Shown piece after piece: positions 1,474-34,836 of a stretch of 64,000 nucleotides of DNA. The number at the start of each line of letters is the position of its first letter. Positions within the stretch are counted from its first letter, which is position 1. The notes under the pieces were generated by a model. It saw only the letters and a program-made list of their open reading frames with translations. It ran no database searches and had not been told where the DNA came from. Position numbers and translations under genes: made by a program. Source of the stretch: Prolixibacteraceae bacterium. GTDB taxonomy: Bacteria > Bacteroidota > Bacteroidia > Bacteroidales > Prolixibacteraceae. Location: assembly GCA_019459525.1 (NCBI GenBank), contig JAIBEY010000072.1:62001-126000 (forward strand), written 5' to 3'.

Positions 1474-1519
1474 TTTTCAATCTTTTCTTTCCCAAATAAA
1501 TTTTAGGCAACGAACTACT

Positions 1520-1527: not shown

Positions 1528-1585
1528 TATGGTTAACAATTGAAGCACTGTTTACATTTAATTTACACCATAACAAAACTAAATT

Positions 1586-2971: not shown

Positions 2972-2976
2972 AACAG

Positions 2977-3013
2977 AAAAAGGTCAGTCCGGCGAAACGG
3001 ACTGACCTTTTTT
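2977..3013 (+). terminator. Rho-independent terminator of glmM
   Basis: AGGTCAGTCCG (2981-2991) pairs perfectly with CGGACTGACCT (2998-3008) around a six-base loop and is followed by T residues. Flanking A and T tracts lengthen the stem and could let it work on both strands, ending the convergent gene at 3035 as well. Confidence 0.9.
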
Positions 3014-3034
3014 CTTTCCAACGTAACTTTTGTG

Positions 3035-4006
3035 CTATTGGATGTTCGTTTTCTTTTGTGTCAGTTGCTCAACTATCAACCCTTTTTCCTGGATAACCAT
3101 TCGCTGATGAACGAGCTTCAACTCATTATCTGCAATTTTTCCCTGAGCCGATTTAATATCCTGTTCTTTCGATTTGATTTTCTCTTTCAACGATTTGACC
3201 TTGTTAAAATATTTCGATTTTTCCTTAGTCAAAACTTTTAGTTCTTTTTTTGCGGTACCATATTCGGGTGTTTTTTTTGATAAGGTTGTGAAGGTAACTT
3301 TCTTTGCCGTAATTACTTCGTCGAGCCTTACAATGTCGCTTTCCACTTCAAATACCCCGGCATTTAATTCTTGAATGTCTGCTTCGTAACGGGTGATGGA
3401 TTTCTCTTCTTTTTTGTTTAGCGACTCGATATCTTTCAGTACATCTTCCTGGCTCGAAACTTCTTTTTTTGCTTCTTTGATTTGATTGTCAACCTCACTT
3501 TTGTAGGCTTCAACTGCAAAATCACGAATGTAGTTTTTCATGTTCTGGATTCGTTCCGGGTCGGCGTTTGATTCGTTTATAAACGTAGAATCGGTATATT
3601 GGAAAAACGCATGGAACTGGCATCCATCGGGCTGTTCAGTCATTCGAGCATAAATGTCCATCGAATGTTTGGTGATTGTTGCCTCTTCAATGGAACGAAC
3701 ATACCATTCATCTTCTTTCTTTTCTACTTTGAGCTTGTCGCGGCTGGACATGTTCTCTTCGCTTTTAAAGATATTGCCAATTTGTGTAGCCAAATTACCT
3801 ACACGTTCACCAAAACCGCGATTGTTGACATATTTTTTCCAGAGCGGTTCAACAGTGCTAAGCTTGGCTTCCGGGATTAATACGGTTACAGCCATTTGCT
3901 GGCCTTTCGACATGTTTTTTTCACCGGTCTCAACTTCAATTTTTTGTTGAGAGCTTACCAGTAAACTGAAGAAAATGAATGCGGAAAGTAAAACTAATTG
4001 TTTCAT
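3035..4006 (-). CDS. Secreted coiled-coil protein of unknown function
   Basis: I do not recognise this 323-residue protein. An N-terminal signal peptide (about residues 1-20, ending VSSQQ) predicts export to the periplasm. Residues 30-160 form a compact domain carrying short motifs such as GFGERVGN. From about residue 165 to 310 the sequence is dense in Lys, Glu and Gln with heptad-like spacing, which indicates a long coiled coil and a rod-like or oligomeric shape. It follows the 207-residue secreted protein at 4073-4696 on the same strand, 66 bp away, so the two are probably co-transcribed. A structural or adaptor role at the envelope is possible but nothing seen proves it. Confidence 0.75.
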   Translation of the reverse strand: MKQLVLLSAFIFFSLLVSSQQKIEVETGEKNMSKGQQMAVTVLIPEAKLSTVEPLWKKYVNNRGFGERVGNLATQIGNIFKSEENMSSRDKLKVEKKEDEWYVRSIEEATITKHSMDIYARMTEQPDGCQFHAFFQYTDSTFINESNADPERIQNMKNYIRDFAVEAYKSEVDNQIKEAKKEVSSQEDVLKDIESLNKKEEKSITRYEADIQELNAGVFEVESDIVRLDEVITAKKVTFTTLSKKTPEYGTAKKELKVLTKEKSKYFNKVKSLKEKIKSKEQDIKSAQGKIADNELKLVHQRMVIQEKGLIVEQLTQKKTNIQ

Positions 4007-12466: not shown

Positions 12467-13690
12467 TTAAACCAATTCCACTGTAACCTTTTTCAGGAAA
12501 CGGCCTTCGAGCAAACGAACGACCCGCTTTACTACTGATTTCCGTATTTCAAGTTCTACAGGTTGGTCCGGATCCTGATGTGCCCAGTTAATTCGGGTGC
12601 CTACTATAATGTGGATAATGTCGTGCTGGGTTAATAGTTTAACTACTTCTTCAGGCGGGCTATCGCCTAAGCGCATATCACTGGTGTAAATTTCAAGTAT
12701 TTCTTCAACTCGTCCCAAGGTCAGTATTCCTTCAGTAACCATTTCAAAACCTTCCATTTTAGCAGCCGGAGGCAATGTTTTTTCCGAAAACCGATGCTGA
12801 ATGTCAATTTCCAGATCCAGTTCGCGCGCAATGATCTCGGCGGTTGTGCCACCACAAATAATCTTTTTCCCAGGGAATTCCTGAATCCGTTTTACGAAAT
12901 CGGCATCTTTAATCTTGTAGAATGGAGGGCCGGTAATCAGCATGAATTCTCTTGGCTGCCTAAAATAAACCACGCCGCAAGTGGCGTCGTCACGAATTTC
13001 GAAAGCATCGTTCATAGCTGCCTGATTCAATATTTTGCGTGCCAGCTTTGTTGCCGATATTTCAGATTCACGGGCGATTTGACTTTCAGCAAATTGGGCA
13101 ATCTGATCGAGTCCCCAGCCTGTAGGGAACCGGGTACTACCTAGTCCTGATTGATTAATTCCATCGGTCATGAAGATGATCCGATCTTCGAGCATTGGAG
13201 TAAATTCCCTGATTCGCAATATTTTTCCGGCATTCTCTTCCCCCCTGATCGGAATCTGGAATTCTTTTGGATCATAAATTTGGCCACGGCGAAAAATGAC
13301 AGATCTTGGATTGTCGTAATTAATAATCCTGACGAGTGAATCTTCTTCAATTTCGATGATCGTGAAGGTGGCATAACTTTCTTTCCCGTCGATACTTTTG
13401 GGCAGGGCGCGCATAAAAATATTCGCTGCAACCTCGGGCTTGGTGTGAAAAGACGTATAATTTAAAGCCATCGATGCGGTGAGTGTAGCCAGAACATTGG
13501 CTTTGACACCATGCCCGATGCCGTCTGAAAGGACTAAAATTGTTCTTCCTTCGGCTTTAATCCGGCGCGTATGAAAAACATCGCCACAAACAACCTGTCC
13601 GTGTCGTTTTAGCTGCTGAACATCAACTTCAATGTGGTAATCGGCCATTGGTATGCTTTTTAGCTCGTTGTTAACTTTCATCATCACCAT
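12467..13690 (-). CDS. SpoIIE-type PP2C serine phosphatase, likely hydrogenase-regulatory
   Basis: Residues about 18-245 form a SpoIIE/PP2C domain. The metal-binding patterns are visible: CGDVF near 35, VLSDGIGHG near 53-61 and FMTDGIN near 172, plus DDATCGVV near 238. A C-terminal domain of about 160 residues (from FMLITGPP to the end) is not one I can name. Such phosphatases remove phosphate from serine on anti-anti-sigma-like proteins in partner-switching pathways, and this long form is known to me from [FeFe]-hydrogenase gene clusters. The gene overlaps the PAS sensor upstream by 20 bp, so the two are translated together. The matching RsbW-like ATPases are encoded about 7 kb away in the hydrogenase operon. 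Confidence 0.82.
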   Translation of the reverse strand: MVMMKVNNELKSIPMADYHIEVDVQQLKRHGQVVCGDVFHTRRIKAEGRTILVLSDGIGHGVKANVLATLTASMALNYTSFHTKPEVAANIFMRALPKSIDGKESYATFTIIEIEEDSLVRIINYDNPRSVIFRRGQIYDPKEFQIPIRGEENAGKILRIREFTPMLEDRIIFMTDGINQSGLGSTRFPTGWGLDQIAQFAESQIARESEISATKLARKILNQAAMNDAFEIRDDATCGVVYFRQPREFMLITGPPFYKIKDADFVKRIQEFPGKKIICGGTTAEIIARELDLEIDIQHRFSEKTLPPAAKMEGFEMVTEGILTLGRVEEILEIYTSDMRLGDSPPEEVVKLLTQHDIIHIIVGTRINWAHQDPDQPVELEIRKSVVKRVVRLLEGRFLKKVTVELV

Positions 13691-14600
13691 ATTGGTACGA
13701 TTCTATAATGGAGTTCAACAATTCTTCTGTTAACGATGCATTATCGCCAAGCAAGAAAGCTATTTTTTGTACGGTTTCCAGATTTTGTTTGTTTACCCGT
13801 TGCGCCCGGCTGATGATTTCTTCGCGAACCAGGGATGGTGCAGACATATCGCGCAGTAATGCCCCGACAACGCGGTGTTTATAAATGGTTATTACAGAAA
13901 TATGAAGCAGTTTATTCTGTATTTTTAAATCGCGTTCCATCAAATTTTCGCCGGACATTAAGGTTGAAGAGAACATTTTAAAGATCACATCGGGAACCAG
14001 TTCTTTCAGATCAGCTCCATGCAGCCCTGGTATTGTTTCGTAGAGTTCCTCAATTTCGGATCCGAAAAGTTTGGCAAATCCTTCGTTCGAATCAATTACT
14101 TTAAATTCACTGTCGATGATAATGATGCCTGCCCTGATTTTGTGCATCATGGCCGAAGCAATTACCGTGGCTTCCCGCGCTTTTTCCAGTTTACGCTCAG
14201 CCTTTTTCCTTTCCGTAATATCGAAAATGGAACCCACAATGCCCATGATTTCACCCATGTTGTTTCGAATGACCGCTTTGTTGAATACGACATCGTGCAG
14301 AACTCCGGAAACATCACGGAATTTGGCTTCATAATTTTGGTCGCCCGGACTATCAAATAACTCCTGATCGCGCTTGGCGTAGATTTCTGCAATTTCGTAT
14401 GGCTGGACATCAAAAACCGTCTTCCCAATTATTTGAGACTTAGGTAACCCAAGCAGCTTTTCCTGAGCCAGGTTGCATGCTTTGTAAATTCCTTGGGTAT
14501 CCCGGTAGAAAATTGGAATTGGTAAGGCATCAATGATTTTCTGATGCAATTCCGGATCGTCAATAAACTCCTGATTGAATGATTTTTCCTCGTAGATCAT
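13671..14600 (-). CDS. Two-PAS-domain sensor protein paired with the SpoIIE phosphatase
   Basis: A soluble 309-residue protein with no kinase, cyclase or DNA-binding domain. PAS1 covers about residues 18-130 (DALPIPIFYRDTQGIYKACN, then the PAC-like IMGIVGSIFDITERKKAE). PAS2 covers about 150-255 (IRAGIIIIDSEFKVIDSNEGFAKLFG). A helical tail follows (VNKQNLETVQKIAFLLGDNAS). In Firmicutes I recall this PAS-plus-tail arrangement fused to the C-terminus of the HsfB-type iron-sulfur protein. Here HsfB is encoded separately at 21991-23367, so this may be its detached sensor half. It overlaps the phosphatase gene downstream by 20 bp. The ligand is unknown; heme, flavin or a redox cofactor are possible. 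Confidence 0.8.
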   Translation of the reverse strand: MIYEEKSFNQEFIDDPELHQKIIDALPIPIFYRDTQGIYKACNLAQEKLLGLPKSQIIGKTVFDVQPYEIAEIYAKRDQELFDSPGDQNYEAKFRDVSGVLHDVVFNKAVIRNNMGEIMGIVGSIFDITERKKAERKLEKAREATVIASAMMHKIRAGIIIIDSEFKVIDSNEGFAKLFGSEIEELYETIPGLHGADLKELVPDVIFKMFSSTLMSGENLMERDLKIQNKLLHISVITIYKHRVVGALLRDMSAPSLVREEIISRAQRVNKQNLETVQKIAFLLGDNASLTEELLNSIIESYQYGDDES

Positions 14601-21128: not shown

Positions 21129-21473
21129 ATGAAGTTAAGAGAAATCGCCGCAGTTTTAAATGCAACGATATCGTGTGGAGCTGAAAGGATAGATGATGAA
21201 GTGGAAATGGGTTACAGCTCTGACCTGATGAGTGATGTATTAACGCTTGATACAGATAATTTGGTGCTGATTACAGGTTTGGTTAACCTTCAGGCCATCC
21301 GTACAGCAGAAATGGCTGATATACGAGCCATTGTTCTGGTGCGCAATAAAAAGGCCACAGACCAAATGCTTGAACTGGCTTGCGAAAATGGAATGTGTAT
21401 CCTCGAATCACCTTATTCCCTGTTCAAATCCAGCGGACTTTTGTTTCAGGCTGGCCTGAAACCTATTTATTGA
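21129..21473 (+). CDS. DRTGG-domain protein 1, start of the hydrogenase operon
   Basis: A 114-residue soluble protein made only of a DRTGG-type domain, the small alpha/beta module also found in HprK and long phosphotransacetylases. Visible pattern: MKLREIAAVLNATISCG, then VEMGYSSDLMSDVL, then VLITGLVNLQAIRTAEMADIRAIVLV and a closing GMCILESPYSLFKSSGLL. I prefer the ATG at 21129, preceded by AAAAAGAGA, over an in-frame TTG at 21102. It opens the gene run that leads into HydB, HydA and HydC. A paralogue lies at 23354-23689. A ligand-binding or phospho-accepting role has been suggested for the fold; here the role is inferred from context only. Confidence 0.82.
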   Translation: MKLREIAAVLNATISCGAERIDDEVEMGYSSDLMSDVLTLDTDNLVLITGLVNLQAIRTAEMADIRAIVLVRNKKATDQMLELACENGMCILESPYSLFKSSGLLFQAGLKPIY

Positions 21474-21580
21474 TTTTAATAAAAAAAGTTACGGGTTACG
21501 AGATACGAGTTTCTGATTTCGATGTGGACATGCACGCAGAATAACACATAACTCGAAACTTGGACCCCGAAACACAAAGC

Positions 21581-21994
21581 ATGAAACTAACTTTTAATAT
21601 ACATGGAGGTGATTTTACCCACGCGGGGCAACCGTCGAGCGAGGTGAAAAAGGTTTTGAAGCAGTTGGGCATTGATGGAAAAACGATTAAAGGTATAGTG
21701 ATTGCGTTGTACGAAGCCGAAGTTAATGTGGTAGCCCATGCCTGGAAAGGAACTGTTGAAGTTGAAATTGATGAATCTAAGATAACCATTATCGTGCGTG
21801 ACGAAGGTCCGGGAATACCTGATATTGAATTGGCGATGCAGGCCGGGTATTCCACCGCGAGTAAAAAAGTTCGGGAGATGGGATTTGGTGCAGGGATGGG
21901 GTTGCCCAATATGAAGAAAAATACTGACGAATTAATAATTGAATCGGAAGTGGACAAAGGCACAACAGTAAAAATGATTAACTATTTTTTATGA
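21581..21994 (+). CDS. RsbW-like GHKL ATPase / anti-sigma-type serine kinase 1
   Basis: A 137-residue stand-alone ATPase. The N box is in ALYEAEVNVVAHAW, the G1 box in VRDEGPGIPD and the G2 region in GFGAGMGLPNMKK. There is no histidine phospho-acceptor domain, as in RsbW/SpoIIAB anti-sigma kinases that phosphorylate a serine on a partner protein. The ATG at 21581 follows the DRTGG gene by 107 bp; an in-frame TTG at 21560 is less likely. The stop overlaps the HsfB-like gene by 4 bp (ATGA), a sign of translational coupling. Together with the SpoIIE phosphatase at 12467-13690 it could form a kinase/phosphatase pair acting on an unknown target. Confidence 0.82.
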   Translation: MKLTFNIHGGDFTHAGQPSSEVKKVLKQLGIDGKTIKGIVIALYEAEVNVVAHAWKGTVEVEIDESKITIIVRDEGPGIPDIELAMQAGYSTASKKVREMGFGAGMGLPNMKKNTDELIIESEVDKGTTVKMINYFL

Positions 21995-23367
21995 GTGGTC
22001 TTCCTACATATCATGCCTTGAAAGTGGATGCGGTTAAATGCATTGGATGCACCCATTGCATGAAATCGTGCCCGACTGAAGCTATTCGCGTGATTGACGG
22101 GCTTGCCGTGATAGACCATGAACGTTGTGTTTATTGCGGTCAATGTCACCGGGCTTGTCCTACGCGCGCTTTTTATGTAGAGCAAGATGATCTGGAAATG
22201 ATCCGGTCGTTTAAATATCGGGTTATTCTGTTTCCTTCCATCATGATTGGTCAGTTTCCTGAAAAGTACAGCGAGGATCAGATTTATGCAGGACTGAAAA
22301 AAGTAGGGTTTACTCATGTTTATGAAGTTGAACAACCCATGCAAGTACTTATCGATTCTGTTCATGAAGTGCTTGAGGATCAGGAAACACATAAGCCAGC
22401 CATTTCAATTTATTGTCCGGCCATAGTCCGCCTTATTCAGGGGCGATACCCTTCTTTAACAGAAAACCTGATTCTCCGGAAAGCTCCTCATAACCTTGCT
22501 GCCCACTTTGCTATTGAGCAACTGATAGAAGAAGGTGCACGGAGGGAAGAAATTGGCCTTTTTTACGCTACCCCCTGTATCGCTAAAATTGCTGCGGTAA
22601 AAAGTCCTGTTGGCGAGCGGGAGTCGATTGTTGATGGTGTCGTTAATATGAACCAGTTATACAACGAGGTGATGAAGGTTATTGCAGACGGGGATGCAGA
22701 GGATAATTCCATTCAACGCGAAAACCTATCGGCCGAAGGTATCACCTGGAGTCTGACCCGAGGTGAATCGTGCCATTTCGGTTCCAGGAGCATAGCTATC
22801 GATGGCATTCATAATGCAGTTCGTTTTCTGGAACGACTTGAAAATGATCAGGTTCATGGAATCGATTTTATTGAAATGCGTGCTTGCGACCAAAGCTGTG
22901 CCGGAGGAATCTTGCTTACAGGCAACCGGTTTATGACTGTTGAAAGGCTTGAACGACGAGCCAAAAGGTACCCGGCAGCCAAAGATATAGCTCAAACGAC
23001 TATCAGGGTTGATACCGAAGAGTTGAAACAAAAACTAATTCTCGACCCCATAAAGCCAAAACCACACTTTATCTTTGGTAAAGATCGGGTTAAAGCGATG
23101 GAGAAGATGAATAAAGCACAACGGATTGTGTGCTTTTTACCTGGCATCGACTGTGGCTCGTGCGGAGCACCCAATTGTCATGCTTTGGCTGAAGATATGG
23201 TAAATAATAAAGCTAAAATGTCCGACTGTATTTACCTGCAGCAAATGTGGGTAGATGAAGGGCGGATTAAGGCAGAAAAAGCGTTCCTCAACGTTCAGAA
23301 AAAATGGGGAACAGATAGATTTAAAGCTGATTGTAATAAAAGAGGACGACGAAATGAAGGTTTCTGA
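21991..23367 (+). CDS. hsfB: HsfB-like iron-sulfur protein with degenerate [FeFe]-hydrogenase domain
   Basis: This 458-residue protein is a putative redox or hydrogen sensor, not an ordinary hydrogenase. Two [4Fe-4S] ferredoxin motifs occupy residues 17-27 and 46-56 (Cys17, 20, 23, 27 and 46, 49, 52, 56). A hydrogenase large-subunit-like domain spans about 70-345. Its L1 motif is reduced to IYCP (Cys142), L2 is TPCIAK (Cys196) and L3 is MRACDQSC (Cys299 and Cys303). The four H-cluster ligand cysteines therefore remain, but the proton-relay cysteine of TSCCP is Tyr141. A further iron-sulfur motif CGSCGAPNC (Cys388, 391, 396, with Cys413) closes the protein. The start overlaps the ATPase gene by 4 bp and the end overlaps the next DRTGG gene by 14 bp. 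The PAS domain seen in fused relatives is absent. Confidence 0.82.
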   Translation: MSGLPTYHALKVDAVKCIGCTHCMKSCPTEAIRVIDGLAVIDHERCVYCGQCHRACPTRAFYVEQDDLEMIRSFKYRVILFPSIMIGQFPEKYSEDQIYAGLKKVGFTHVYEVEQPMQVLIDSVHEVLEDQETHKPAISIYCPAIVRLIQGRYPSLTENLILRKAPHNLAAHFAIEQLIEEGARREEIGLFYATPCIAKIAAVKSPVGERESIVDGVVNMNQLYNEVMKVIADGDAEDNSIQRENLSAEGITWSLTRGESCHFGSRSIAIDGIHNAVRFLERLENDQVHGIDFIEMRACDQSCAGGILLTGNRFMTVERLERRAKRYPAAKDIAQTTIRVDTEELKQKLILDPIKPKPHFIFGKDRVKAMEKMNKAQRIVCFLPGIDCGSCGAPNCHALAEDMVNNKAKMSDCIYLQQMWVDEGRIKAEKAFLNVQKKWGTDRFKADCNKRGRRNEGF

Positions 23368-23689
23368 AATTGTTGAAAAATTGGGCTTGACCATCTTCTC
23401 CGGAAGAGAAGGTCTCGACCGGGAAATTACCGGTGGATATGTTTCTGATTTGTTAAGTGATGTGATGGGAAATGCACAGGAAGGACAGGCCTGGATTACC
23501 CTTCAGGTACACCAAAATGTGATGGCAATTGCCTCGCTGAAAGATATGGCCGCTGTTATCCTGGTTAATAACCTTGAGCCGCATGAAAATACAGTTCGGC
23601 ATTCCGACGACGAAAATATTCCAGTATTGGGAACCAGCCTGTCAACCTTCGAAATAGCAGGGAAGCTGTATCAACTCTTTAATCAGTAG
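23354..23689 (+). CDS. DRTGG-domain protein 2
   Basis: A 111-residue paralogue of the DRTGG protein at 21129-21473. Matching positions include MKVSEIVEKLGLTIFSG, then EITGGYVSDLLSDVM, then AWITLQVHQNVMAIASLKDMAAVILV and the end FEIAGKLYQLF. The ATG at 23354 is chosen because it matches the paralogue's beginning exactly; a longer in-frame opening at 23255 would run through HsfB coding sequence. It overlaps the HsfB gene by 14 bp and lies 2 bp before the PHP gene. Two different DRTGG proteins around one HsfB gene may form a heterodimer. Confidence 0.82.
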   Translation: MKVSEIVEKLGLTIFSGREGLDREITGGYVSDLLSDVMGNAQEGQAWITLQVHQNVMAIASLKDMAAVILVNNLEPHENTVRHSDDENIPVLGTSLSTFEIAGKLYQLFNQ

Positions 23690-23691
23690 TT

Positions 23692-24432
23692 ATGAAGTCG
23701 TTCAGGACTGATCTTCATATCCACACGGTTTTGTCGCCCTGTGGCGATTTGGAAATGAGCCCTGCACGCATTGTATCGCTGGCCAGCAAACGTGGATTGG
23801 ATATCATTGGAATAACCGATCACAATACCACCAAACAATGTGAATTGGTATGGAAGCTGGGGCAAAGATTCGGTCTGACCGTTATTCCCGGATGCGAAAT
23901 GACTTCGCGGGAAGAGGTTCACTGTTTGGGGCTCTTCTCTGATTTTGATGCTTTGAGGGAGTTTCAGCATTTTATCGATCAGCATTTAGCAATTATCCCG
24001 AACGATCCTGCGCTTTTTGGCTACCAGGTGGTGGTTGATGCGGACGATAATATTATTGAAATGCTGGATAATTATTTGGGTGCTTCGTTAAACGTGAGTA
24101 TAGAAGAAGTGGAACAGAAAGTGCACGACCTTTCCGGGATATTTATTCCGGCGCACATCGATAGGCCACGGAACAGCCTATACAGTCAATTGGGTTTTTT
24201 CCCGCCTGAATTAAAAGTTGACGCCTTGCAGATTTCGAAGCTGGCAAAAGAAATGGCCGTTCGCGAAAAATACAAAATCGATACTGAAATCACGTTGGTG
24301 CAATTCTCTGACGCCCATTATCCTGACGATTTAGGGAAAATATTCACCCTGTTTGAAATGGAAGAACCTTCTTTCGGAGAATTGAGAAAGGCATTGTTGC
24401 GGGAAGATGGAAGAAACGTTCGGATTCCTTAA
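23692..24432 (+). CDS. PHP-domain metal-dependent phosphoesterase
   Basis: A 246-residue PHP protein of the YciV/TrpH type. Metal-binding motifs are visible: DLHIHTVLSPCG with His9 and His11, GITDHNT near residues 40-46, a glutamate in GCEMTSREEVHCLGL and HIDRP near 160, plus SDAHYPDD near 205. Enzymes of this kind hydrolyse phosphate esters such as nucleotide 3',5'-bisphosphates or RNA 5' ends. In this operon, between DRTGG and ATPase genes, it may act on a phosphorylated regulator or nucleotide signal; that is inference from context. It starts 2 bp after the DRTGG gene. Confidence 0.83.
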   Translation: MKSFRTDLHIHTVLSPCGDLEMSPARIVSLASKRGLDIIGITDHNTTKQCELVWKLGQRFGLTVIPGCEMTSREEVHCLGLFSDFDALREFQHFIDQHLAIIPNDPALFGYQVVVDADDNIIEMLDNYLGASLNVSIEEVEQKVHDLSGIFIPAHIDRPRNSLYSQLGFFPPELKVDALQISKLAKEMAVREKYKIDTEITLVQFSDAHYPDDLGKIFTLFEMEEPSFGELRKALLREDGRNVRIP

Positions 24433-24495
24433 TATAGATCAAAAGTGGGTTTTCCAATTAGCAATTCAGTGCATCAGTAATTCAATCATTGGCAT

Positions 24496-25044
24496 ATGAA
24501 AGACCTTTCCCTCCATATTCTTGATATTGTCCAGAATTCGATCCGCGCAAAGGCTAAGTTAATCCGGATAGAAATTACAGAACGGCCCGGAGAAGATCAA
24601 CTGATTATCACGATTACCGACGACGGCTCGGGCATGAGCCCCGAACAACTGAAGCAAGCCATTGATCCGTTTTATACCTCGCGAACTACCCGAAAAGTTG
24701 GACTTGGACTATCACTTCTCAAGCAGAATGCCGAAATGACCAACGGTTCATTCCACATCGAATCAGATCCCGGTGTCGGCACAAAAGTTAAAGCTGTATT
24801 TGGGATGAATCATCTGGACCGGCCAATAATGGGTGATTTGACCGGCACTTTACTTCTCTTGATTTGCTCTCCCGAAGAAATAGATTATGTCTTTAAACAT
24901 CAAACTCCGATGGGCGAATTTGAACTTGATACCCGAACAGTTAGGCAAACACTTGAAAATGTTCCGATTACTCATCCTGATGTGAGATCCTTCCTGAAAG
25001 AAATGCTTCGTGGAAATTTAGAACAAATCCAAATAAGCGAATGA
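24496..25044 (+). CDS. GHKL ATPase / serine-kinase-like protein 2
   Basis: A 182-residue protein with a GHKL ATPase domain in the first about 105 residues: N box in HILDIVQNSIRAKA, G1 in ITDDGSGM and G2 in RKVGLGLSLLKQNA. The next about 75 residues (from LDRPIMGDLTGTLLLLI to the end) form a short domain of unknown role conserved in hydrogenase-linked homologues I recall. No phospho-acceptor histidine or sensor region is present. It lies 63 bp after the PHP gene and 89 bp before the [2Fe-2S] protein. As the second kinase-like protein in the operon it may act with, or oppose, the one at 21581-21994. Confidence 0.8.
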   Translation: MKDLSLHILDIVQNSIRAKAKLIRIEITERPGEDQLIITITDDGSGMSPEQLKQAIDPFYTSRTTRKVGLGLSLLKQNAEMTNGSFHIESDPGVGTKVKAVFGMNHLDRPIMGDLTGTLLLLICSPEEIDYVFKHQTPMGEFELDTRTVRQTLENVPITHPDVRSFLKEMLRGNLEQIQISE

Positions 25045-25133: not shown

Positions 25134-25529
25134 ATGAATAAAATAAAATCGCTCGCTGACTTAAAGAAATTGCAGTCCGACGTTCAGTCTAAAATTAAAC
25201 TAAGGGAAAAAGGTGACCATTCCGAAAATCTGGTTCAAATCAAAGTATCGATGGCCACTTGCGGAATTGCTTCGGGCGCCAAAGAAACCATGACCTACTT
25301 CATCGAAGAACTCGATCATCAGGGCATTGATGCTGTTATTACTCAAACCGGCTGCATGGGTTATTGCTATGCCGAACCAACTATTGAACTGACGATGCCT
25401 GGTCAACCGCCTGTCGTTTATGGATTTGTAACTAAAGCAAAGGCGCTGGAAATCATTGAAAAACATATTAAACTAAACGAAATGGTTGACGGAATTATTC
25501 CGGTGACCTACAATTCTATTGAAAACTAA
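25134..25529 (+). CDS. Thioredoxin-like [2Fe-2S] ferredoxin-type subunit of the hydrogenase operon
   Basis: A 131-residue protein. Residues about 1-30 are a charged helix, and residues 35-115 form the thioredoxin-like ferredoxin fold. Cysteines are Cys43 in MATCGIASGAKE and Cys74/Cys78 in TGCMGYCYAEP. The usual domain uses four cysteines; the second one is missing here (Gly-Ala follows Cys43), so the cluster may have an altered ligand. It sits 19 bp before hydB and resembles the N-terminal domain of that protein. It is probably an electron-transfer or assembly partner of the HydABC complex. The family is commonly found beside NuoE/NuoF-like hydrogenase subunits. Confidence 0.82.
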   Translation: MNKIKSLADLKKLQSDVQSKIKLREKGDHSENLVQIKVSMATCGIASGAKETMTYFIEELDHQGIDAVITQTGCMGYCYAEPTIELTMPGQPPVVYGFVTKAKALEIIEKHIKLNEMVDGIIPVTYNSIEN

Positions 25530-25548: not shown

Positions 25549-27342
25549 ATGGCCGAATACAATATGCACATACTGGTTTGCGGTGGAACCGGATGCAAGG
25601 CTTCACAAAGCGAACTCATCAAAACGAATTTTAAAACGCGGCTGAACGAGTTTGGGCTTACCGATGAAATTCAGGTTGTTCTGACCGGTTGTTTTGGCTT
25701 TTGCGAAAAAGGTCCCATCGTTAAAATATTGCCCGACAATACTTTTTACACCCAGGTTACCCCCGAAGATGTTTCAGAGATCGTGGAAGAACACATCATA
25801 AAAGGTAGAAAAGTTGAACGTTTGCTTTATAAAGACCCGGAAACGAAAGCAGCCATTGGTGATGCGAAAGGCATGGATTTCTACAAAAAACAAATTCGGA
25901 TTGCTCTTCGGAATTGTGGGTTTATTAATCCTGAAAACATTGAAGAATATATCGGACGCGATGGTTATGCCGCACTCGGTACCTGCCTTTCAGAAAAAAC
26001 TCCGGATGAAGTCATTCAAATGATTAAAGATTCCGGTTTGCGAGGAAGAGGCGGCGGTGGTTTTCCAACCGGCCTGAAATGGGACCTGACGCGTAAATCA
26101 GAAAGCGACCAGAAATATGTGGTTTGTAATGCCGACGAAGGTGACCCCGGTGCATTTATGGATCGCTCTATTCTGGAGGGAGACCCGCACTCGGTGCTCG
26201 AAGCCATGGCTATTTGTGGTTATTGCATTGGTGCCGACAAAGGTTTGGTTTATATCAGGGCTGAATATCCGTTAGCGATCGAACGCCTGAAAATTGCAAT
26301 CAACCAGGCGCGCGAATATGGTTTGCTGGGTAATGATATCCTGGGAGCCGGTTTCAATTTTGATGTGGAAATTCGTTATGGTGCCGGGGCTTTTGTGTGT
26401 GGCGAAGAAACCGCACTCATCCATTCGATGGAAGGCAAGCGCGGCGAACCCACCGTAAAACCACCATTCCCGGCAGAAAAGGGATACAATGGCAAGCCAA
26501 CCAATGTGAACAATGTAGAGACTTTTGCCAATATACCGGTAATTATTAATAAAGGGGCAGAATGGTTCGCATCCATTGGAACCGCCAATTCAAAGGGAAC
26601 CAAAGTATTTGCTCTCGCCGGAAAGATCAACAATGTGGGTTTAATTGAAGTCCCGATGGGAATTACCCTCCGCGAAATTATATACGATATCGGTGGTGGA
26701 ATTAAAGACGGGCGCGAATTTAAAGCCGTTCAAACCGGCGGCCCTTCTGGCGGTTGCCTGACTAAGTCGTTTCTGGATACGCCTATTGATTACGATAATT
26801 TAGTTGCAGCCGGGTCTATGATGGGTTCTGGTGGAATGATCGTACTCGACGATACGGATTGTATGGTGGCCATCGCCAAATTTTACCTTGAATTTACCCT
26901 CGACGAATCGTGTGGAAAGTGTGCTCCCTGCCGCATTGGCAACAAACGATTACACGAGATTCTGGAAAAAATAACCGTAGGCGATGGTAAAATTGAAGAT
27001 TTAGATCGATTAAGAATGCTGAGTACGGTTATTAAAGATACTTCGTTGTGTGGATTAGGTCAAACATCGCCGAATCCGGTACTTTCTACACTCGACCATT
27101 TTTACGACGAATATCTGGCGCATGTCACTTCGCATAAATGTGTGGCTGGCCAATGTAAGGCCTTGATGCACTATTCTATTGATGCCGAACGCTGCACGGG
27201 TTGTACCCTTTGTTTCAGGAATTGCCCGGTTGGAGCTATTTCAGGAGAACGCCGGGCTCCACATTACATCGATCAGTCGCTGTGCATCAAATGCGGTGTG
27301 TGTTTCGAGAAATGTAAGTTTGATGCTGTATTAATTGCCTAA
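25549..27342 (+). CDS. hydB: HydB1: NuoF-like diaphorase subunit of [FeFe] hydrogenase
   Basis: This flavoprotein subunit exchanges electrons with NAD(H). Residues 1-90 are a thioredoxin-like [2Fe-2S] domain (Cys11, 16, 48 and 52). The NADH/FMN domain contains GRGGGGF at 166-172 and the CNADEGDPGAF region at 193-203. An SLBB-like part follows, then a [4Fe-4S] domain CGKCAPC at 455-461 with Cys501. Two C-terminal ferredoxin [4Fe-4S] motifs complete it (Cys549, 552, 555, 559 and 579, 582, 585, 589). The domain set equals the HydB of trimeric, electron-bifurcating enzymes. I prefer ATG 25549 over an in-frame TTG at 25519, which would overlap the previous gene. It lies 11 bp before hydA. Confidence 0.92.
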   Translation: MAEYNMHILVCGGTGCKASQSELIKTNFKTRLNEFGLTDEIQVVLTGCFGFCEKGPIVKILPDNTFYTQVTPEDVSEIVEEHIIKGRKVERLLYKDPETKAAIGDAKGMDFYKKQIRIALRNCGFINPENIEEYIGRDGYAALGTCLSEKTPDEVIQMIKDSGLRGRGGGGFPTGLKWDLTRKSESDQKYVVCNADEGDPGAFMDRSILEGDPHSVLEAMAICGYCIGADKGLVYIRAEYPLAIERLKIAINQAREYGLLGNDILGAGFNFDVEIRYGAGAFVCGEETALIHSMEGKRGEPTVKPPFPAEKGYNGKPTNVNNVETFANIPVIINKGAEWFASIGTANSKGTKVFALAGKINNVGLIEVPMGITLREIIYDIGGGIKDGREFKAVQTGGPSGGCLTKSFLDTPIDYDNLVAAGSMMGSGGMIVLDDTDCMVAIAKFYLEFTLDESCGKCAPCRIGNKRLHEILEKITVGDGKIEDLDRLRMLSTVIKDTSLCGLGQTSPNPVLSTLDHFYDEYLAHVTSHKCVAGQCKALMHYSIDAERCTGCTLCFRNCPVGAISGERRAPHYIDQSLCIKCGVCFEKCKFDAVLIA

Positions 27343-27353: not shown

Positions 27354-29105
27354 ATGGAAATGATAAACCTAACAATAGATCAAAAACCGGTAGTTGTCCG
27401 CAAAGGAACTACAGTCCTGAAAGCAGCATCAAGCATAGGAATTGATATTCCGACACTTTGCTACATGAAGCTCGACGACATGAATATTGAAAATAAACCT
27501 GGAGGATGCCGTGTTTGCGTGGTAGAAGTTAAAGGTCGGCGAAACCTCGCTCCGGCTTGCTGTACCGAAGCTACCGAAGGAATGGAAATAAGTACCCATA
27601 CCATACGGGTGGTAAATGCCCGCAGAACGGTGGTTGAACTGATTCTTTCCGATCATCCGGCTGATTGCCTGATTTGTGCAAAATCGGGTAATTGCGAATT
27701 ACAGGATATGGCGCATCATCTGGGAATCCGGCAGATTCATTATCAGGGCGAACAGTCGATGTATCGCGAAGATACTTCGCCTGCAATTATCCGTGAAATC
27801 AATAAGTGCATCATGTGCCGCCGTTGCGAAACCATGTGTAACGATGTACAAACGGTTGGCGTTCTTTCTGCCGTCAACCGTGGATTTCAGGCTGTTGTAG
27901 CTCCTGCATTCGAGATGAATCTCGACCATTCTGTATGTACGTATTGTGGACAGTGTGTGGCTGTTTGTCCAACAGGGGCCTTAACCGAAGTTGACGAAAC
28001 CGGCGCTGTTATTCGTGCGCTTTCTGATCCGACTAAAACCGTGATTGTACAAACTGCCCCTGCTGTCCGGGCAGCTTTGGGCGAGGAATTTGGAATGCCT
28101 GCGGGGACATTGGTTACCGGGAAAATGGTTGCCGCCCTGCGTCGTCTGGGTTTCGATCACGTTTTCGATACCGATTTTGCCGCCGACCTCACCATTATGG
28201 AAGAAGGGACCGAATTGCTGACCCGTTTATCGGCTTACATGGCTGGCGATCAGAATGTGAAACTTCCGATTCTGACTTCCTGTTGTCCGGCATGGGTCAA
28301 ATTCTTCGAGCATCAGTTCCCCGAAATGAAAGATATTCCGTCAACGGCCCGTTCGCCTCAGCAAATGTTTGGCTCTATTGCCAAAACCTACTTTGCTGAT
28401 AAAATAGGAGTGAAGCGCGAAAATCTGGTGGTCGTTTCTATCATGCCTTGTTTGGCTAAAAAGTATGAAAGCAGTCGCCCGGAATTTTCGGTAAATGGAA
28501 ATCCCGATGTGGACTTTGCTTTAACCACCCGCGAACTGGCTCATCTGATTAATTTAGGGAATATCGATTTCAAGTCGTTACCCAACGAAGAATTTGATCA
28601 GCCTTTGGGAGAATCGACAGGCGCGGCAGTCATTTTCGGGACTACCGGCGGGGTAATTGAAGCTGCTGTTCGTACTGCCTACGAAATTTTTACCGGGAAG
28701 CCACTTCCCCGGATCGATTTTGAAGAATTGCGCGGAATGGATGGTTTGCGGAAAGCCACTATCGATTTTAACGGAACACCCATTAACATCGGTATCGCGC
28801 ACGGATTAGGAAATGCCAGAAAATTGTTGGAAGACATTCAGGCCGGAAACAGTGAGTTTCATGCCATCGAAATCATGTCGTGTCCTGGAGGTTGTATTGG
28901 TGGCGGAGGTCAGCCTTACCATCATGGTGATGCCGAAATTCTGAAAAAGCGCCAGCGGGCCATTTATTCCGAAGACAAAAATAAAACACTCCGGAAATCG
29001 CACGAAAATCCGTACATCACCAAACTTTACGATGAATTTTTAGGCGCCCCGATGAGCGAGAAAGCGCATCATTTGCTGCACACCAAATATTTTGACCGTA
29101 GCTAA
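27354..29105 (+). CDS. hydA: HydA1: catalytic subunit of [FeFe] hydrogenase
   Basis: This 583-residue subunit makes or consumes hydrogen at the H-cluster. Domain order: N-terminal [2Fe-2S] (Cys36, 52, 55, 69 or 70), His-ligated [4Fe-4S] (His101, Cys105, 108, 114) and two ferredoxin [4Fe-4S] motifs (Cys152, 155, 158, 162 and 195, 198, 201, 205). The H domain carries canonical motifs: L1 TSCCPAW at 308-314, L2 MPCLAKKYE at 364-372, and L3 EIMSCPGGCIGGGGQP from 506 with ligands Cys510 and Cys514. A C-terminal small-subunit-like extension ends in HHLLHTKY. It is a complete M3-type enzyme of the HydABC (group A3-like) class. HydC follows after 114 bp. Confidence 0.95.
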   Translation: MEMINLTIDQKPVVVRKGTTVLKAASSIGIDIPTLCYMKLDDMNIENKPGGCRVCVVEVKGRRNLAPACCTEATEGMEISTHTIRVVNARRTVVELILSDHPADCLICAKSGNCELQDMAHHLGIRQIHYQGEQSMYREDTSPAIIREINKCIMCRRCETMCNDVQTVGVLSAVNRGFQAVVAPAFEMNLDHSVCTYCGQCVAVCPTGALTEVDETGAVIRALSDPTKTVIVQTAPAVRAALGEEFGMPAGTLVTGKMVAALRRLGFDHVFDTDFAADLTIMEEGTELLTRLSAYMAGDQNVKLPILTSCCPAWVKFFEHQFPEMKDIPSTARSPQQMFGSIAKTYFADKIGVKRENLVVVSIMPCLAKKYESSRPEFSVNGNPDVDFALTTRELAHLINLGNIDFKSLPNEEFDQPLGESTGAAVIFGTTGGVIEAAVRTAYEIFTGKPLPRIDFEELRGMDGLRKATIDFNGTPINIGIAHGLGNARKLLEDIQAGNSEFHAIEIMSCPGGCIGGGGQPYHHGDAEILKKRQRAIYSEDKNKTLRKSHENPYITKLYDEFLGAPMSEKAHHLLHTKYFDRS

Positions 29106-29219: not shown

Positions 29220-29726
29220 ATGCCAAAAATAAAACTTTCAGAAAAAACCATCGGACTGATTAAAGACGTCTGCGCCGATTTTGGAAATCAGGGAAGTGAG
29301 CTGATTAATGTTTTGCATCAGGTTCAGGGGAAACTGGGTTACTTACCTGCTGAAGTGCAGGAGGTAATTGCCAAAGAGCTGAATATTTCGGTAGCTAAAG
29401 TTTACGGGGTTGTTACTTTTTATTCCTTCTTTACCATGATTCCCATGGGTGAATTCCCGATTTCCATTTGCATGGGAACGGCTTGTTATGTGCGGGGGTC
29501 TGAACAGGTGCTGGCCGAATTCAAACGACAATTAAGTATAGAAGTGGGGCAAAGTACGGCCGATAATAAATTTTCGCTCAATTGCCTGCGTTGTGTGGGC
29601 GCCTGCGGACTGGCCCCGGTGGTGATGGTTGGCGAAAAAGTGTATGGCCGCGTTTCTCCTCAAATGGTGAAAAATATTATTGCCGAATACAAAGAAGGTT
29701 GCGCAACCGAATCAAAAAGTGCATAA
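29220..29726 (+). CDS. hydC: HydC1: NuoE-like [2Fe-2S] subunit of [FeFe] hydrogenase
   Basis: A 168-residue NuoE-type subunit. An N-terminal helical part (about residues 1-75, with the family string VYGVVTFYSFF) precedes the thioredoxin-like [2Fe-2S] domain. Cluster ligands are Cys84 and Cys89 in CMGTACYVRG and Cys125 and Cys129 in CVGACGLAP; Cys122 is additional. It completes the HydABC trimer with the two genes upstream and is the last gene of the operon, ending before a strong terminator. The 114-bp gap before it, holding a hairpin repeat, is the longest gap in the operon and may tune its dose. Confidence 0.92.
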   Translation: MPKIKLSEKTIGLIKDVCADFGNQGSELINVLHQVQGKLGYLPAEVQEVIAKELNISVAKVYGVVTFYSFFTMIPMGEFPISICMGTACYVRGSEQVLAEFKRQLSIEVGQSTADNKFSLNCLRCVGACGLAPVVMVGEKVYGRVSPQMVKNIIAEYKEGCATESKSA

Positions 29727-31373: not shown

Positions 31374-31859
31374 ATGAATCCTGTTTCCGATCTTATCAGA
31401 AATCTGGCCGATCAATATGGCCGTAACAGGCACAACCTGTTACCTATTCTTCAGGGAGTTGTTGAGCAGGAAAAATACCTGTCGGAATTTTCGATGACCG
31501 AAATTGCGCGTGAATTGGATTTGCCTGCCGCCGATGTTTATGGTACTGCAACTTTCTATTCTTTTCTGGAACATAAAAAAATGGGGAAATACATCATTCG
31601 GGTGTGCAAAACCATTACCTGTTCCATGAAAGGGAAAAACCAAATTATGCTGGCTATTGAAGATATGTTGAAAATTAATGTCGGTGAAACCACTCCGGAT
31701 GGCAATTTTTCCTTGTTGCAGACCAATTGTCTTGGGTTTTGTCACAAAGCGCCTGCAATGCTTATTAACAATGAGGTTTATACCGAACTGACTCCTGAAA
31801 AGGTTCGTGAAATCCTGAGTTCCTACCTGAAAAAGAAAGGAGTACACAATGACAACTAA
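31374..31859 (+). CDS. HydC2: NuoE-like subunit, second hydrogenase operon
   Basis: A 161-residue NuoE-type [2Fe-2S] protein and first gene of the second hydrogenase operon. The helical N-terminus carries the family string DVYGTATFYSFLEHKKMGKY. Cluster ligands are Cys78 and Cys83 in VCKTITCSMKG and Cys119 and Cys123 in TNCLGFCHKAP. It is only distantly similar to HydC1 and is not a recent duplicate. The end overlaps the NuoF-like gene by 11 bp, a sign of coupled translation. Confidence 0.9.
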   Translation: MNPVSDLIRNLADQYGRNRHNLLPILQGVVEQEKYLSEFSMTEIARELDLPAADVYGTATFYSFLEHKKMGKYIIRVCKTITCSMKGKNQIMLAIEDMLKINVGETTPDGNFSLLQTNCLGFCHKAPAMLINNEVYTELTPEKVREILSSYLKKKGVHNDN

Positions 31860-33033
31860 TTATCAGCTGAAACGAGCCGATTTCATTTTCAAGAACGAAA
31901 ACGATTGGGAAGAAGTGCTGAGTAAAAACATTAACCGATCGCCGCAGGAACTAATTAACGAACTGATTAGTTCGGAGTTAAAGGGCAGGGGAGGAGCCGG
32001 TTTTCCTACAGGTTTAAAATGGAAACTATCAGCGGAGGCGGTTGATGAAACCAAATATGTGATTTGCAATGCTGATGAGGGCGAACCCGGAACATTCAAA
32101 GATCGTGAAATTTTGTCGCGTGTACCGTTTAAGGTTCTGACAGCAATGGCCGTTTGCGGGCATGTTATAGGCGCCAAAGAAGGCTATATTTATCTGCGGG
32201 GCGAATACTTTTTTCTTCAGCCCGAGCTGAATAAAGCTATTGGTGAGTTTGAATATTATTGCAAAGAAATTAACCTGGATTTTAAGATCAGGATATTTAT
32301 GGGCAGCGGCGCCTACATCTGCGGGGAAGAAACAGCGCTCTTTGAATCGATGGAAGGCAAACGCGGCGAACCACGCAATAAACCGCCGTATCCTTCGTCG
32401 TGCGGATACATGGGCAAACCAACTGTGATCAACAATGTGGAAACGCTGGCACATACTTTCACGATTTTTAAGTATGGCGCGAAACGTTTTTACGATTTAG
32501 GAGTTCAATATTCGCGCGGGTCGAAGTTGTTTTCGGTCTCAGGAGATACGCCTAAACCCGGAATTTACGAACTGGAACTGGGAATGAGCCTGGCCGATTT
32601 CGTCGATGAGTTTGGCGATGGCGATACCAAAGCTGTTCAGGTGGGTGGCGCTTCTGGTTTTTTGGTTCCCCGGAAAAGGTTTAGCGAAACAGCAATCGGA
32701 TTTCAGGGAAAACTTACCGGAATATCGTTGCCAACGGGAGGTTCCATGATGCTTTTTAACAGTTCCCGCTCCATGTTTAATGTACTCGATAATTACCTCG
32801 AATTTTTCCGTGAAGAATCGTGCGGGCAATGTACCCCGTGCCGGGTAGGTTGCCAACAGTTGCTGAAAGGAATTAAAGCGGTGAAACGGGGAGAAAAAAA
32901 TGCCCAATACCTCGACAAATTATTGCGTTTGGCCGAAACCATGCAATATACGGCAAAGTGTGGTTTGGGCCAGTCTGTGGCTAACTCGTTCTCATCTATT
33001 GTAGAAAACTTCAGGGAAGAAATGATTTACTAA
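31849..33033 (+). CDS. HydB2: short NuoF-like diaphorase subunit
   Basis: This 394-residue flavoprotein has the NADH/FMN core (GRGGAGF at 46-52, CNADEGEPGTF near 73-83), an SLBB-like stretch and the [4Fe-4S] domain CGQCTPC at 325-331 with Cys371. It lacks both the N-terminal thioredoxin-like [2Fe-2S] domain and the C-terminal double ferredoxin domain of HydB1. In published HydABC work these extra clusters are thought to matter for ferredoxin-linked bifurcation, so this version may only link NAD(H) to hydrogen; that is inference. It overlaps HydC2 by 11 bp and precedes HydA2 by 12 bp. Confidence 0.9.
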   Translation: MTTNYQLKRADFIFKNENDWEEVLSKNINRSPQELINELISSELKGRGGAGFPTGLKWKLSAEAVDETKYVICNADEGEPGTFKDREILSRVPFKVLTAMAVCGHVIGAKEGYIYLRGEYFFLQPELNKAIGEFEYYCKEINLDFKIRIFMGSGAYICGEETALFESMEGKRGEPRNKPPYPSSCGYMGKPTVINNVETLAHTFTIFKYGAKRFYDLGVQYSRGSKLFSVSGDTPKPGIYELELGMSLADFVDEFGDGDTKAVQVGGASGFLVPRKRFSETAIGFQGKLTGISLPTGGSMMLFNSSRSMFNVLDNYLEFFREESCGQCTPCRVGCQQLLKGIKAVKRGEKNAQYLDKLLRLAETMQYTAKCGLGQSVANSFSSIVENFREEMIY

Positions 33034-33045
33034 AACCAAGTTGTT

Positions 33046-34836
33046 ATGGCAAAAAATATAAAAATAACAATAAACGGGGTAACCGTCGAAATTGAACCCG
33101 GTACCACTATTTTGGAAGCTGCACGACAAACCGGGGTAATCATTCCAACCTTATGTTACCATAAAGATCTTTGCGTGGCCGGTAATTGCCGGGTTTGCGT
33201 AACCGAAATTGTTGGGCAGAAACGTTTGACCGCCGCCTGTGCGACACCTTGCGAGGAAGGGATGGAGGTATTGACTAATTCGCTGAAAGTGCGAAATTCC
33301 AGAAAGCATATCATCGAATTGTTGTTATCCGAGCATAATGCCGACTGTACCCGCTGCTATAAAAATGGGAACTGTGAGTTGCAATTACTTGCTTCTGAGT
33401 ATAAAATTATGACCCAGGATTTCATCAGGCTTGTTCCGTTTAAAAAATACAGCATCGATATGTTTTCGCCATCAATTATTAAAGACGACAGCAAGTGCAT
33501 CAGATGCCAGCGTTGCGTTCGCACCTGTGCTGAGTTGCAGGGCGTAAATGCACTGACGGTTGCCCATAAAGGAGATCAGATGAAAATAACGACCTTCTTC
33601 GAGAAAACGATGAATGATGTGGTTTGCACCAATTGCGGGCAATGCATCAATCACTGCCCCACCGGGGCTTTGGTCGAGAAAAATTACATTGAGGAAGTTT
33701 GGGATGCTATTGCTGACAAAACGAGGCACGTAGTGGTTCAAACGGCTCCTGCTGTTCGCGTTGGATTGGGCGAAGAACTGGGCTTTGAACCCGGGTCGAG
33801 GGTAACCGGCAAGATGGTTGCTGCCCTGAAAAGACTGGGTTTTGATGCCGTGATGGATACCGATTTTACTGCCGATCTGACCATCATGGAAGAAGGTACT
33901 GAATTGCTTACCCGGCTTAAAAAAGTTCTGGTCGATCGTGACGAGGAAGTAAAACTACCGATGGCAACTTCGTGCTCACCAGGTTGGATCAAATACATCG
34001 AACACATGTATCCCGATTACCTCGATCATTTGTCAACCTGCAAATCGCCTCAGCAAATGTTTGGCGCACTGGCTAAAACCTACTATGCCAAAGCCCGGAA
34101 TCTCGATCCTGAGAAGATTGTTTCTGTTTCAATTATGCCATGCACGGCTAAGAAATTTGAGGCCAACCGACCCGAGATGCACGACAGCGGCTATCGTGAT
34201 GTGGATTACGTATTAACCACACGTGAATTGGCGATCATGATAAAACAGGCGGGTATCGATTTTATGAAGTTGGAAGATATGCATTACGACAGGCTGATGG
34301 GTGAATCAACCGGGGCAGGAGTTATCTTCGGGGCTACCGGTGGTGTTATGGAGGCAGCGCTTCGGACTGCTTACGAATTGGTGACCGGCCGTGATGTGCC
34401 GTTTGAGAACCTGAATATTGCCCCGGTCCGTGGGATGGACGGTGTAAAAGAGGCTTCCGTAAAAATTGAGAATCCCTTGAAAGAATGGGCATTTCTGGAT
34501 GGAGTTGAATTGAAATGTGCAGTCGCTCATGGGCTGGTTAATGCTAAGAAAGTAATGGATTCCATTCGCTCCGGCGAAACCAGTTATCATTTTATCGAGT
34601 TTATGGCTTGCCCGGGAGGGTGCTTGGGTGGTGGCGGTCAACCGATTCCAACCAGTCCTGAAATCCGGAGGAAGCGGGCTGAGGCCATTTATGCTGAAGA
34701 CGAAGGGATGCCTTTGAGAAAATCGCACCTGAATCCGGAAGTGATTAAGATTTATAAAGATTTTCTGGACAAGCCTCTTGGCGAAAAATCGCATCAGTTG
34801 TTACACACCAAATATACAGCTCGCGAAAGATTTTAA
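33046..34836 (+). CDS. HydA2: catalytic [FeFe]-hydrogenase subunit with variant L1 motif
   Basis: A 596-residue M3-type hydrogenase. Clusters in order: [2Fe-2S] (Cys37, 48, 51, 65), His-ligated [4Fe-4S] (His97, Cys101, 104, 110) and two ferredoxin motifs (Cys151, 154, 157, 161 and 194, 197, 200, 204). L2 is MPCTAKKFE at 364-372 and L3 is EFMACPGGCLGGGGQP from 518 (Cys522 and Cys526). L1 reads TSCSPGW at 308-314: the proton-relay Cys310 is kept, but the cysteine that normally binds the [4Fe-4S] part of the H-cluster is Ser311. A cysteine at 332 (STCKSPQQ), where HydA1 has Ala, may replace it. It is clearly homologous to HydA1 along its whole length. Confidence 0.93.
   Translation: MAKNIKITINGVTVEIEPGTTILEAARQTGVIIPTLCYHKDLCVAGNCRVCVTEIVGQKRLTAACATPCEEGMEVLTNSLKVRNSRKHIIELLLSEHNADCTRCYKNGNCELQLLASEYKIMTQDFIRLVPFKKYSIDMFSPSIIKDDSKCIRCQRCVRTCAELQGVNALTVAHKGDQMKITTFFEKTMNDVVCTNCGQCINHCPTGALVEKNYIEEVWDAIADKTRHVVVQTAPAVRVGLGEELGFEPGSRVTGKMVAALKRLGFDAVMDTDFTADLTIMEEGTELLTRLKKVLVDRDEEVKLPMATSCSPGWIKYIEHMYPDYLDHLSTCKSPQQMFGALAKTYYAKARNLDPEKIVSVSIMPCTAKKFEANRPEMHDSGYRDVDYVLTTRELAIMIKQAGIDFMKLEDMHYDRLMGESTGAGVIFGATGGVMEAALRTAYELVTGRDVPFENLNIAPVRGMDGVKEASVKIENPLKEWAFLDGVELKCAVAHGLVNAKKVMDSIRSGETSYHFIEFMACPGGCLGGGGQPIPTSPEIRRKRAEAIYAEDEGMPLRKSHLNPEVIKIYKDFLDKPLGEKSHQLLHTKYTARERF

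Follow-up and report, generated by a model that had tools for sequence, protein, structure and literature searches.

What do six genes ahead of the structural genes of a hydrogenase contribute to that enzyme? The question is raised by a 64,000-nucleotide stretch of a Prolixibacteraceae bacterium (assembly GCA_019459525.1, contig JAIBEY010000072.1, positions 62,001 to 126,000), here called the window, for which the original prediction had described a partner-switching-like module built of two DRTGG proteins, two RsbW-like ATPases, an iron-sulfur HsfB-like protein and a PHP phosphoesterase. Six co-directional genes (DRTGG1, HATP1, HsfB, DRTGG2, PHP and HATP2) were confirmed at 21129-25044, followed by the genes of a 2Fe-2S protein (FES2), HydB, HydA and HydC of a group A6 [FeFe] hydrogenase; their position before the structural genes, with two DRTGG proteins, HsfB and PHP among them, was thereby borne out. 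The unit is read here as a probable dedicated post-translational control of NADH-linked electron-bifurcating (Bfu/HydBC-type) enzymes, resembling a partner switch in which DRTGG proteins take the place of STAS proteins, and a probability of about 0.6 is given to this reading, which was drawn from sequence comparison. The six genes are as follows.

21129 to 21473, + strand: DRTGG1, predicted partner of HATP1, 114 amino acids (DRTGG fold in the model; Pfam score below the cut-off)
21581 to 21994, + strand: HATP1, SpoIIAB/RsbW-type GHKL ATPase, predicted Ser/Thr kinase and hub (PF13581, 4.7e-13)
21991 to 23367, + strand: HsfB, hydrogenase-like Fe-S protein, predicted sensor input (Fe_hyd_lg_C, PF04060)
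23354 to 23689, + strand: DRTGG2, paralogue of DRTGG1, 111 amino acids, overlapping the end of hsfB (PF07085, 4.5e-6)
23692 to 24432, + strand: PHP-family phosphoesterase with conserved metal-site residues (PF02811, PF13263)
24496 to 25044, + strand: HATP2, stand-alone GHL (MutL/GyrB-like) ATPase (PF02518, 2.1e-19; model compared with PMS2/MutL)

The unit was followed through 115 HATP1 loci (112 distinct HATP1), which were drawn from the best 80 of at least 408 confirmed relatives in named genomes and from other searches; phyla other than Bacteroidota were under-sampled, and many loci were cut by contig ends. A DRTGG gene was found within 1.2 kb upstream of HATP1 in 112/112 distinct loci and HsfB downstream of it in 106/112, followed by DRTGG2 and PHP in 90, HATP2 in 77 and HydB in 73, and the median intergenic gap between neighbours of the unit was 1-11 bases. 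With a DRTGG gene upstream in every distinct locus and gaps of this size, the association of the genes exceeds chance, and the trio DRTGG1-HATP1-HsfB is the core of the unit. DRTGG2, PHP and HATP2, which were found in most loci and not in all, form a second tier. No other conserved partner was found in the 23 loci without a PHP label. A membrane protein of about 295 amino acids was seen after the trio in four trio-only loci (L043, L046, L048 and L152), and in L099 the genes DRTGG2-PHP-HATP2-HydC-FES2 were present on the strand opposite to DRTGG1-HATP1-HsfB, an arrangement showing that the set of six can be divided in two. The full six-gene set was also found in the human-gut commensal Parabacteroides distasonis. 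In Parabacteroides the unit was not adjacent to the hydrogenase, and in Subdoligranulum variabile (Bacillota, L103) the unit was divergent from a HydC-HATP2-FES2-HydB-HydA run.

Natural fusions point to the partner of HATP1. DRTGG1 and HATP1 were found as a single polypeptide of 265-280 amino acids in four genomes (L153, L154, L222 and L223), and the two fusions scanned by Pfam (L154 and L222) contained both domains, with the DRTGG part slightly short of the cut-off of 25.2 bits (24.2 and 23.2 bits, respectively). A CBS pair was fused to HATP1 in L190, L191 and L224 (PF00571, 93.0 bits in L190 and 98.8 bits in L224), and no HsfB was labelled in these three stretches. Because of these two kinds of fusion, the simplest reading would be that HATP1 is a hub, DRTGG1 its partner and HsfB or the CBS pair an interchangeable input. 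The suggestion that a DRTGG protein stands in for STAS as the partner of a kinase-type protein was upheld by the DRTGG1-HATP1 fusions and by the GHKL residues kept in all loci. The arrangement is similar to the SpoIIAB/RsbW-SpoIIAA/RsbV pairs in that a SpoIIAB-type GHKL protein with its motif residues kept is present beside a small partner, whereas the partner of HATP1 has the DRTGG fold and not the STAS fold, DRTGG1 or a CBS pair can be fused to HATP1, the likely target is a metabolic enzyme, and SpoIIE is not obligate.

HATP1 was found to score 49.7 bits on the RsbW-type family PF13581 (cut-off 27.4), its best curated model was spIIAB (5.2e-19, 68.5 bits, with the equivalog cut-off of 135 not reached), and its closest PDB entries were the SpoIIAB structures 1til/1l0o. 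The GHKL motif residues E45, N49, D74, G76, G78, R98, G101, G103 and G105, counted from the ATG, were conserved in 115/115 loci, and HATP1 is predicted to be an active kinase. HATP2 scored 70.4 bits on PF02518 and just 14.4 bits on PF13581, and its model (predicted local distance difference test score, pLDDT, 88.8) was closest to PMS2/MutL/Topo VI-B/GyrB, with Z of 11.3-13.2 over 124-155 residues; the top Foldseek row for this model was the histidine kinase ZraS. The prediction of two RsbW-like ATPases was thus kept for HATP1 alone, and HATP2 was rejected as a second RsbW kinase on both its Pfam score and its model. Among 31 pattern stretches in viral contigs, no relative of HATP1 was found.

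DRTGG1 scored 20.1 bits on PF07085, below the cut-off of 25.2, and DRTGG2 scored 26.9 bits, above it. The model of DRTGG1 (pLDDT 95.4) was found to have the DRTGG fold, with Z of 18.1, a root-mean-square deviation of 1.7 and 113 aligned residues against AF1212 (2ioj), followed by Z of 14.4 against the CBS-pyrophosphatase (3l2b); unlike the DRTGG domains of these two proteins, those of the window are stand-alone and paired with a GHKL protein. No STAS chain was present in the 50 rows shown for the model, with a STAS-type fold still possible. Numbered from the ATG starts, Ser35 was conserved in 110/111 DRTGG1 and 91/91 DRTGG2, and Thr49 in 111/111 DRTGG1 and 91/91 DRTGG2; one of these two residues is the predicted phosphate acceptor.

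PHP (32.1 bits) contained H9, H11, D43, H44, E69, H77, H155, D207 and H209 in 88/88 sequences, nine residues that are taken to be metal ligands, and as a phosphoesterase in the operon it was commoner than SpoIIE. Its best PDB matches were endonuclease Q chains, and its NCBIfam matches included nucleotide phosphatases. These matches, together with the CBS-HATP1 fusions and with the pyrophosphatase CBS-DRTGG regulatory region (3l2b/3l31) among the closest solved DRTGG folds, would suit a nucleotide-signal unit, in which a (di)nucleotide is bound by DRTGG and hydrolysed by PHP, with HATP1 serving as an ATP-dependent transducer and not as a protein kinase. Such a unit is considered unlikely, and it is opposed by the four loci in which the DRTGG1-HATP1 fusion and HsfB were present without a PHP or HATP2 label.

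A SpoIIE phosphatase had been counted as the phosphatase of the pathway. Its gene does exist in the window, 7.4 kb upstream of the unit, on the opposite strand and beside a PAS gene.

12467 to 13690, - strand: SpoIIE-family PP2C phosphatase, not obligate to the unit (PF07228, 2.4e-14)
13671 to 14600, - strand: PAS protein paired with SpoIIE, not obligate to the unit

SpoIIE was found in only 15/115 module loci (11/64 of the long ones), and a PAS-SpoIIE pair was present by the hydrogenase in 4/17 stretches without the module (L141, L143, L148 and L151), so the pair belongs to the hydrogenase neighbourhood and not to the module. A built-in role of SpoIIE was not supported by this distribution, on which SpoIIE was rejected as the obligatory phosphatase. 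In L148, from the module-less genome G492 of the window's family, the pair was divergent from the hydrogenase. The absence of a STAS protein holds for the window, in which no match to PF01740 was found, the genome search giving two matches, both elsewhere, one of them a stand-alone 120-residue open reading frame (ORF) on contig C45. That ORF, the SpoIIE gene 7.4 kb away and the SpoIIAB-like character of HATP1 are what a classical RsbW-type switch could be built from, ending on a STAS protein and a sigma factor encoded elsewhere with SpoIIE as the phosphatase; with no STAS match in the window, SpoIIE in so few loci and DRTGG1, not STAS, as the fused partner, such a switch is improbable. Reading by eye of the part of L189 upstream of the module (1-3539) suggested a run of genes for an RsbU-type phosphatase, a STAS protein and an RsbW-type kinase; L209, which belongs to the same family as L189, contained genes of similar size in this place.

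HsfB contained two 4Fe-4S motifs and matched Fe_hyd_lg_C (80.9 bits) and PF04060. Of its H-cluster 4Fe-4S cysteines, C142 and C196 were conserved in 109/109 sequences, C303 in 107/107 read and C299 in 105/107 read, C299 being replaced by His in L222 and L223; the four are presumably the ligands of the 4Fe-4S part of the H-cluster. Position 141, before the first cluster cysteine, is assumed to be the site of the proton-transfer cysteine, and it was occupied by F/Y/S/A and not by Cys in 109/109. HsfB, which keeps the four cluster cysteines and has F/Y/S/A at the proton-transfer site, thus resembles a hydrogenase and is probably not one itself, and G172 is an example of a genome that contains HsfB without a catalytic [FeFe] hydrogenase. 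The second Cys of the first 4Fe-4S motif (residue 20, about 22048-22050) was Cys in 91/109 sequences, and residue 20 was R/H/D/Q/E in 18/20 [NiFe]-class or molybdopterin-associated loci (L153-L156, L189 and L209-L223, with the exceptions L216 and L217), which suggests that the first HsfB cluster may differ with the enzyme partner.

By eye, HsfB was found to be extended by a PAS-like region (about 590 amino acids) or a histidine kinase (about 660 amino acids) in L007, L015, L010 and L021. In these proteins the HsfB core is joined to further sensor outputs, and the PAS protein of the window may derive from an HsfB-PAS sensor by loss of the Fe-S part. The HsfB of the window shares this core and its cluster cysteines with the HsfB-PAS plus SpoIIE and HsfB-histidine kinase (group C/BfuT-like) sensors; unlike them it is free-standing, and its companion is DRTGG1-HATP1 where those sensors have PAS or a histidine kinase. 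Beside group A3 hydrogenases, hydrogenases of group C3 that contain a PAS or histidine kinase domain have been reported (PMC11406978).

The genes that follow the unit in the window are given below.

25134 to 25529, + strand: FES2, small 2Fe-2S ferredoxin-like protein, recurrent neighbour and candidate target
25549 to 27342, + strand: HydB, NuoF-like bifurcating core, candidate target common to the enzyme contexts seen
27354 to 29105, + strand: HydA, group A6 [FeFe] hydrogenase (NF040763, 906 bits)
29220 to 29726, + strand: HydC, NuoE-like (PF01257, 4.5e-49)

HydA exceeded the curated cut-off of FeFe_hydrog_A6 (NF040763; 765 bits). A second HydC-HydB-HydA copy without a module of its own was present just downstream, at 31374-34836. 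Such a second copy was also seen in L053, L066, L068, L073 and L090, where it was followed by a PAS-labelled protein of 617-628 amino acids, an HsfB-PAS fusion judging by its length, and by SpoIIE.

The placement of the module inside a hydrogenase operon was right for the window and too narrow in general. HATP1 was found in 21/275 genomes of another class of the same phylum, with the module in separate genes in 16, in the CBS form in 3 and in the fused form in 2. Three of the separate-gene loci (L213, L216 and L217) were cut by contig ends, and in 13/13 of those left to test the [FeFe] catalytic domain PF02906 was absent from the HydA-like protein, which was of the HdrA type in both loci tested with NCBIfam (L155 and L212). 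An ORF resembling the [NiFe] small subunit was present in 10/13 of these stretches (L155 by Pfam and nine by N-terminal letters), and [NiFe] large subunits were confirmed in L155, L218 and the CBS-form locus L224. The fused form, found in two genomes of that class and two of the window's order, was beside a molybdopterin NuoG/formate-dehydrogenase-like subunit in 4/4 loci (L153, L154, L222 and L223), where FES2 appeared by eye as the N-terminus of HydB. HydB and the FES2 module were thus common to the [FeFe] A6, [NiFe]-Hdr-like and molybdopterin contexts, and a role in hydrogenases only was ruled out by the latter two. In a HATP1 tree of 49 sequences, the architecture and enzyme types were separated with only the minimum of three changes, several deep branches of the tree being weak, the support of the fused-form clade being 29/93, and L159 and L103 forming long branches.

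In the order of the window, HATP1 was found in 62/198 genomes and the A6 HydA, counted at E of at most 1e-100, in 126/198. The A6 HydA was present in 61/62 genomes with HATP1 and in 65/136 without it (Fisher p 3e-14). The 62nd genome, G319, contained a HydB cut by a contig edge, which explains what could have been taken for a trio genome without a hydrogenase. The trio was not next to a hydrogenase in 23 genomes, and a large HydA was found elsewhere in 18 of them. Conversely, 17/17 module-less stretches, taken from HATP1-negative genomes, encoded HydA, HydB and HydC with no DRTGG, HATP1 or PHP label; an HsfB label was present on a 308-residue ORF in L138, and HATP2 labels were present in 2/17 under the stricter labelling (L143, 596 amino acids; L146, 145 amino acids and far from the enzyme), to which another labelling added a 691-residue protein in L151. 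The unit is not required for the enzyme, as the HydABC genes occur without it in all of these stretches.

This dispensability bears on two further explanations. An assembly or repair unit, in which the GHKL ATPases are chaperones and HsfB is an Fe-S scaffold or donor that inserts clusters or flavin into HydB/FES2, would account for the likeness of HATP2 to MutL/GyrB (ATP-driven clamps and not kinases), for the many cluster cysteines kept in HsfB and for the company of HydB across enzyme types. It is nevertheless an unlikely explanation, as HydABC genes do without the unit and a CBS pair, which fits sensing better than cluster delivery, can be present where HsfB is missing. The proteins could also be accessory subunits of a larger Bfu supercomplex and not a signalling unit, with HsfB as an electron-transfer arm, which would agree with their operonic, tightly spaced and Fe-S rich genes; the unit standing apart from the hydrogenase in Parabacteroides, and again the HydABC genes without the unit, make this very doubtful.

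Under the post-translational control that is favoured here, HsfB would read the redox state, or a CBS pair the adenylate state, and the state so read would set the kinase or binding activity of HATP1 towards DRTGG1/2. By binding or releasing the shared HydB/2Fe-2S core, the DRTGG proteins would then gate the use of NADH and ferredoxin, with PHP, and SpoIIE in some lineages, reversing the action of HATP1. A broader proposal is held more tentatively, at somewhat under even odds: a class of post-translational governor that is widespread and has gone unrecognised, in which the HATP1 kinase and DRTGG would act with exchangeable sensors on the NADH/2Fe-2S core of [FeFe], [NiFe]-Hdr and molybdopterin Bfu enzymes, through redox or energy gating and not through transcription. 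No DNA-binding domain was found over cut-off in the Pfam and curated-model scans of the unit proteins, and a post-translational output is favoured for this reason and because the unit stays with the enzyme core when the catalytic subunits differ.

Several points weigh against the control proposed here. The conserved Ser and Thr of DRTGG could serve structure or ligand binding instead, no role of DRTGG as a phospho-target is known to us, and the Ser35 motif was not alignable by sequence to the solved DRTGG chains, of which only the C-terminal half was aligned (3l2b/3l31). DRTGG2 weakly matched the transcription factor SpxR (18.5 of 600 bits), as did DRTGG1 the PucR model (17.2 of 33.5 bits), and given these matches a transcriptional output of the unit is possible. 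The loci L092 and L159 contained neither HsfB nor a CBS substitute and are not explained by a swappable sensor; L028 was also without HsfB, in a stretch that stops at a contig edge. HATP1 was absent from 65/126 A6 genomes. Among the 61 genomes with both, the A6 match of G368 was weak (3.1e-143), and in the module locus of this genome (L160) HydB and HydC were labelled and HydA was not, the HydB being 77% identical to that of the window. In 5/23 genomes with a non-adjacent trio, whose completeness is unstated, no match to a large HydA or HydB was found, and in one of the five (L099) the stretch ended with HydC and FES2. All module loci had been found through HATP1 or HsfB, and the 17 module-less stretches had been chosen by HydA matches and not at random.

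Related operons have been described in part. The enzyme beside the unit is of the BfuABC/HydABC type, a family with several catalytic partners, as among the neighbours of the unit (PMC9304861); unlike the components of that family, the six unit genes do not encode enzyme subunits. The main text of PMC9304861 contains none of the words 'kinase', 'DRTGG', 'PHP' and 'SpoIIE', and its Figure 3 marks regulatory genes in plain text. The operon Halsa_1862-1871 of Halanaerobium hydrogeniformans was reported to contain HydA, NADH dehydrogenase, a ferredoxin-like protein, a histidine kinase and NuoE, followed by PHP, an iron-sulfur binding hydrogenase, an iron-sulfur protein, an anti-sigma-type kinase and an unidentified ORF (PMC4237134), and it is apparently the same unit in Bacillota, although the genes are listed there by annotation alone, with no function given and no DRTGG protein named in that account. 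HsfB and hydrogenase are also named in Desulfotomaculum genome papers. In the main texts of the open-access literature, figures and supplements aside, no published function was found for the unit, which agrees with the earlier description of a largely undescribed system, and the pairing of 'DRTGG' with 'hydrogenase' in open-access texts gave an unrelated AAA-DRTGG protein alone. What would be new here is switching by a GHKL kinase with DRTGG instead of STAS, apparently aimed at bifurcating enzymes.

The yield of H2 and the balance between NADH and ferredoxin in gut and syntrophic bacteria are set by electron bifurcation, and to our knowledge the control of this step in anaerobes is poorly known beyond transcription. 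With a conserved sensor-kinase-partner unit that accompanies the bifurcating core irrespective of the catalytic metal, the control of bifurcation would become directly testable, and a genetic test is within reach because all six genes are present in the gut commensal Parabacteroides distasonis. If the proposed control is true, partner switching would no longer be confined to STAS proteins and sigma factors and would include metabolic enzymes.

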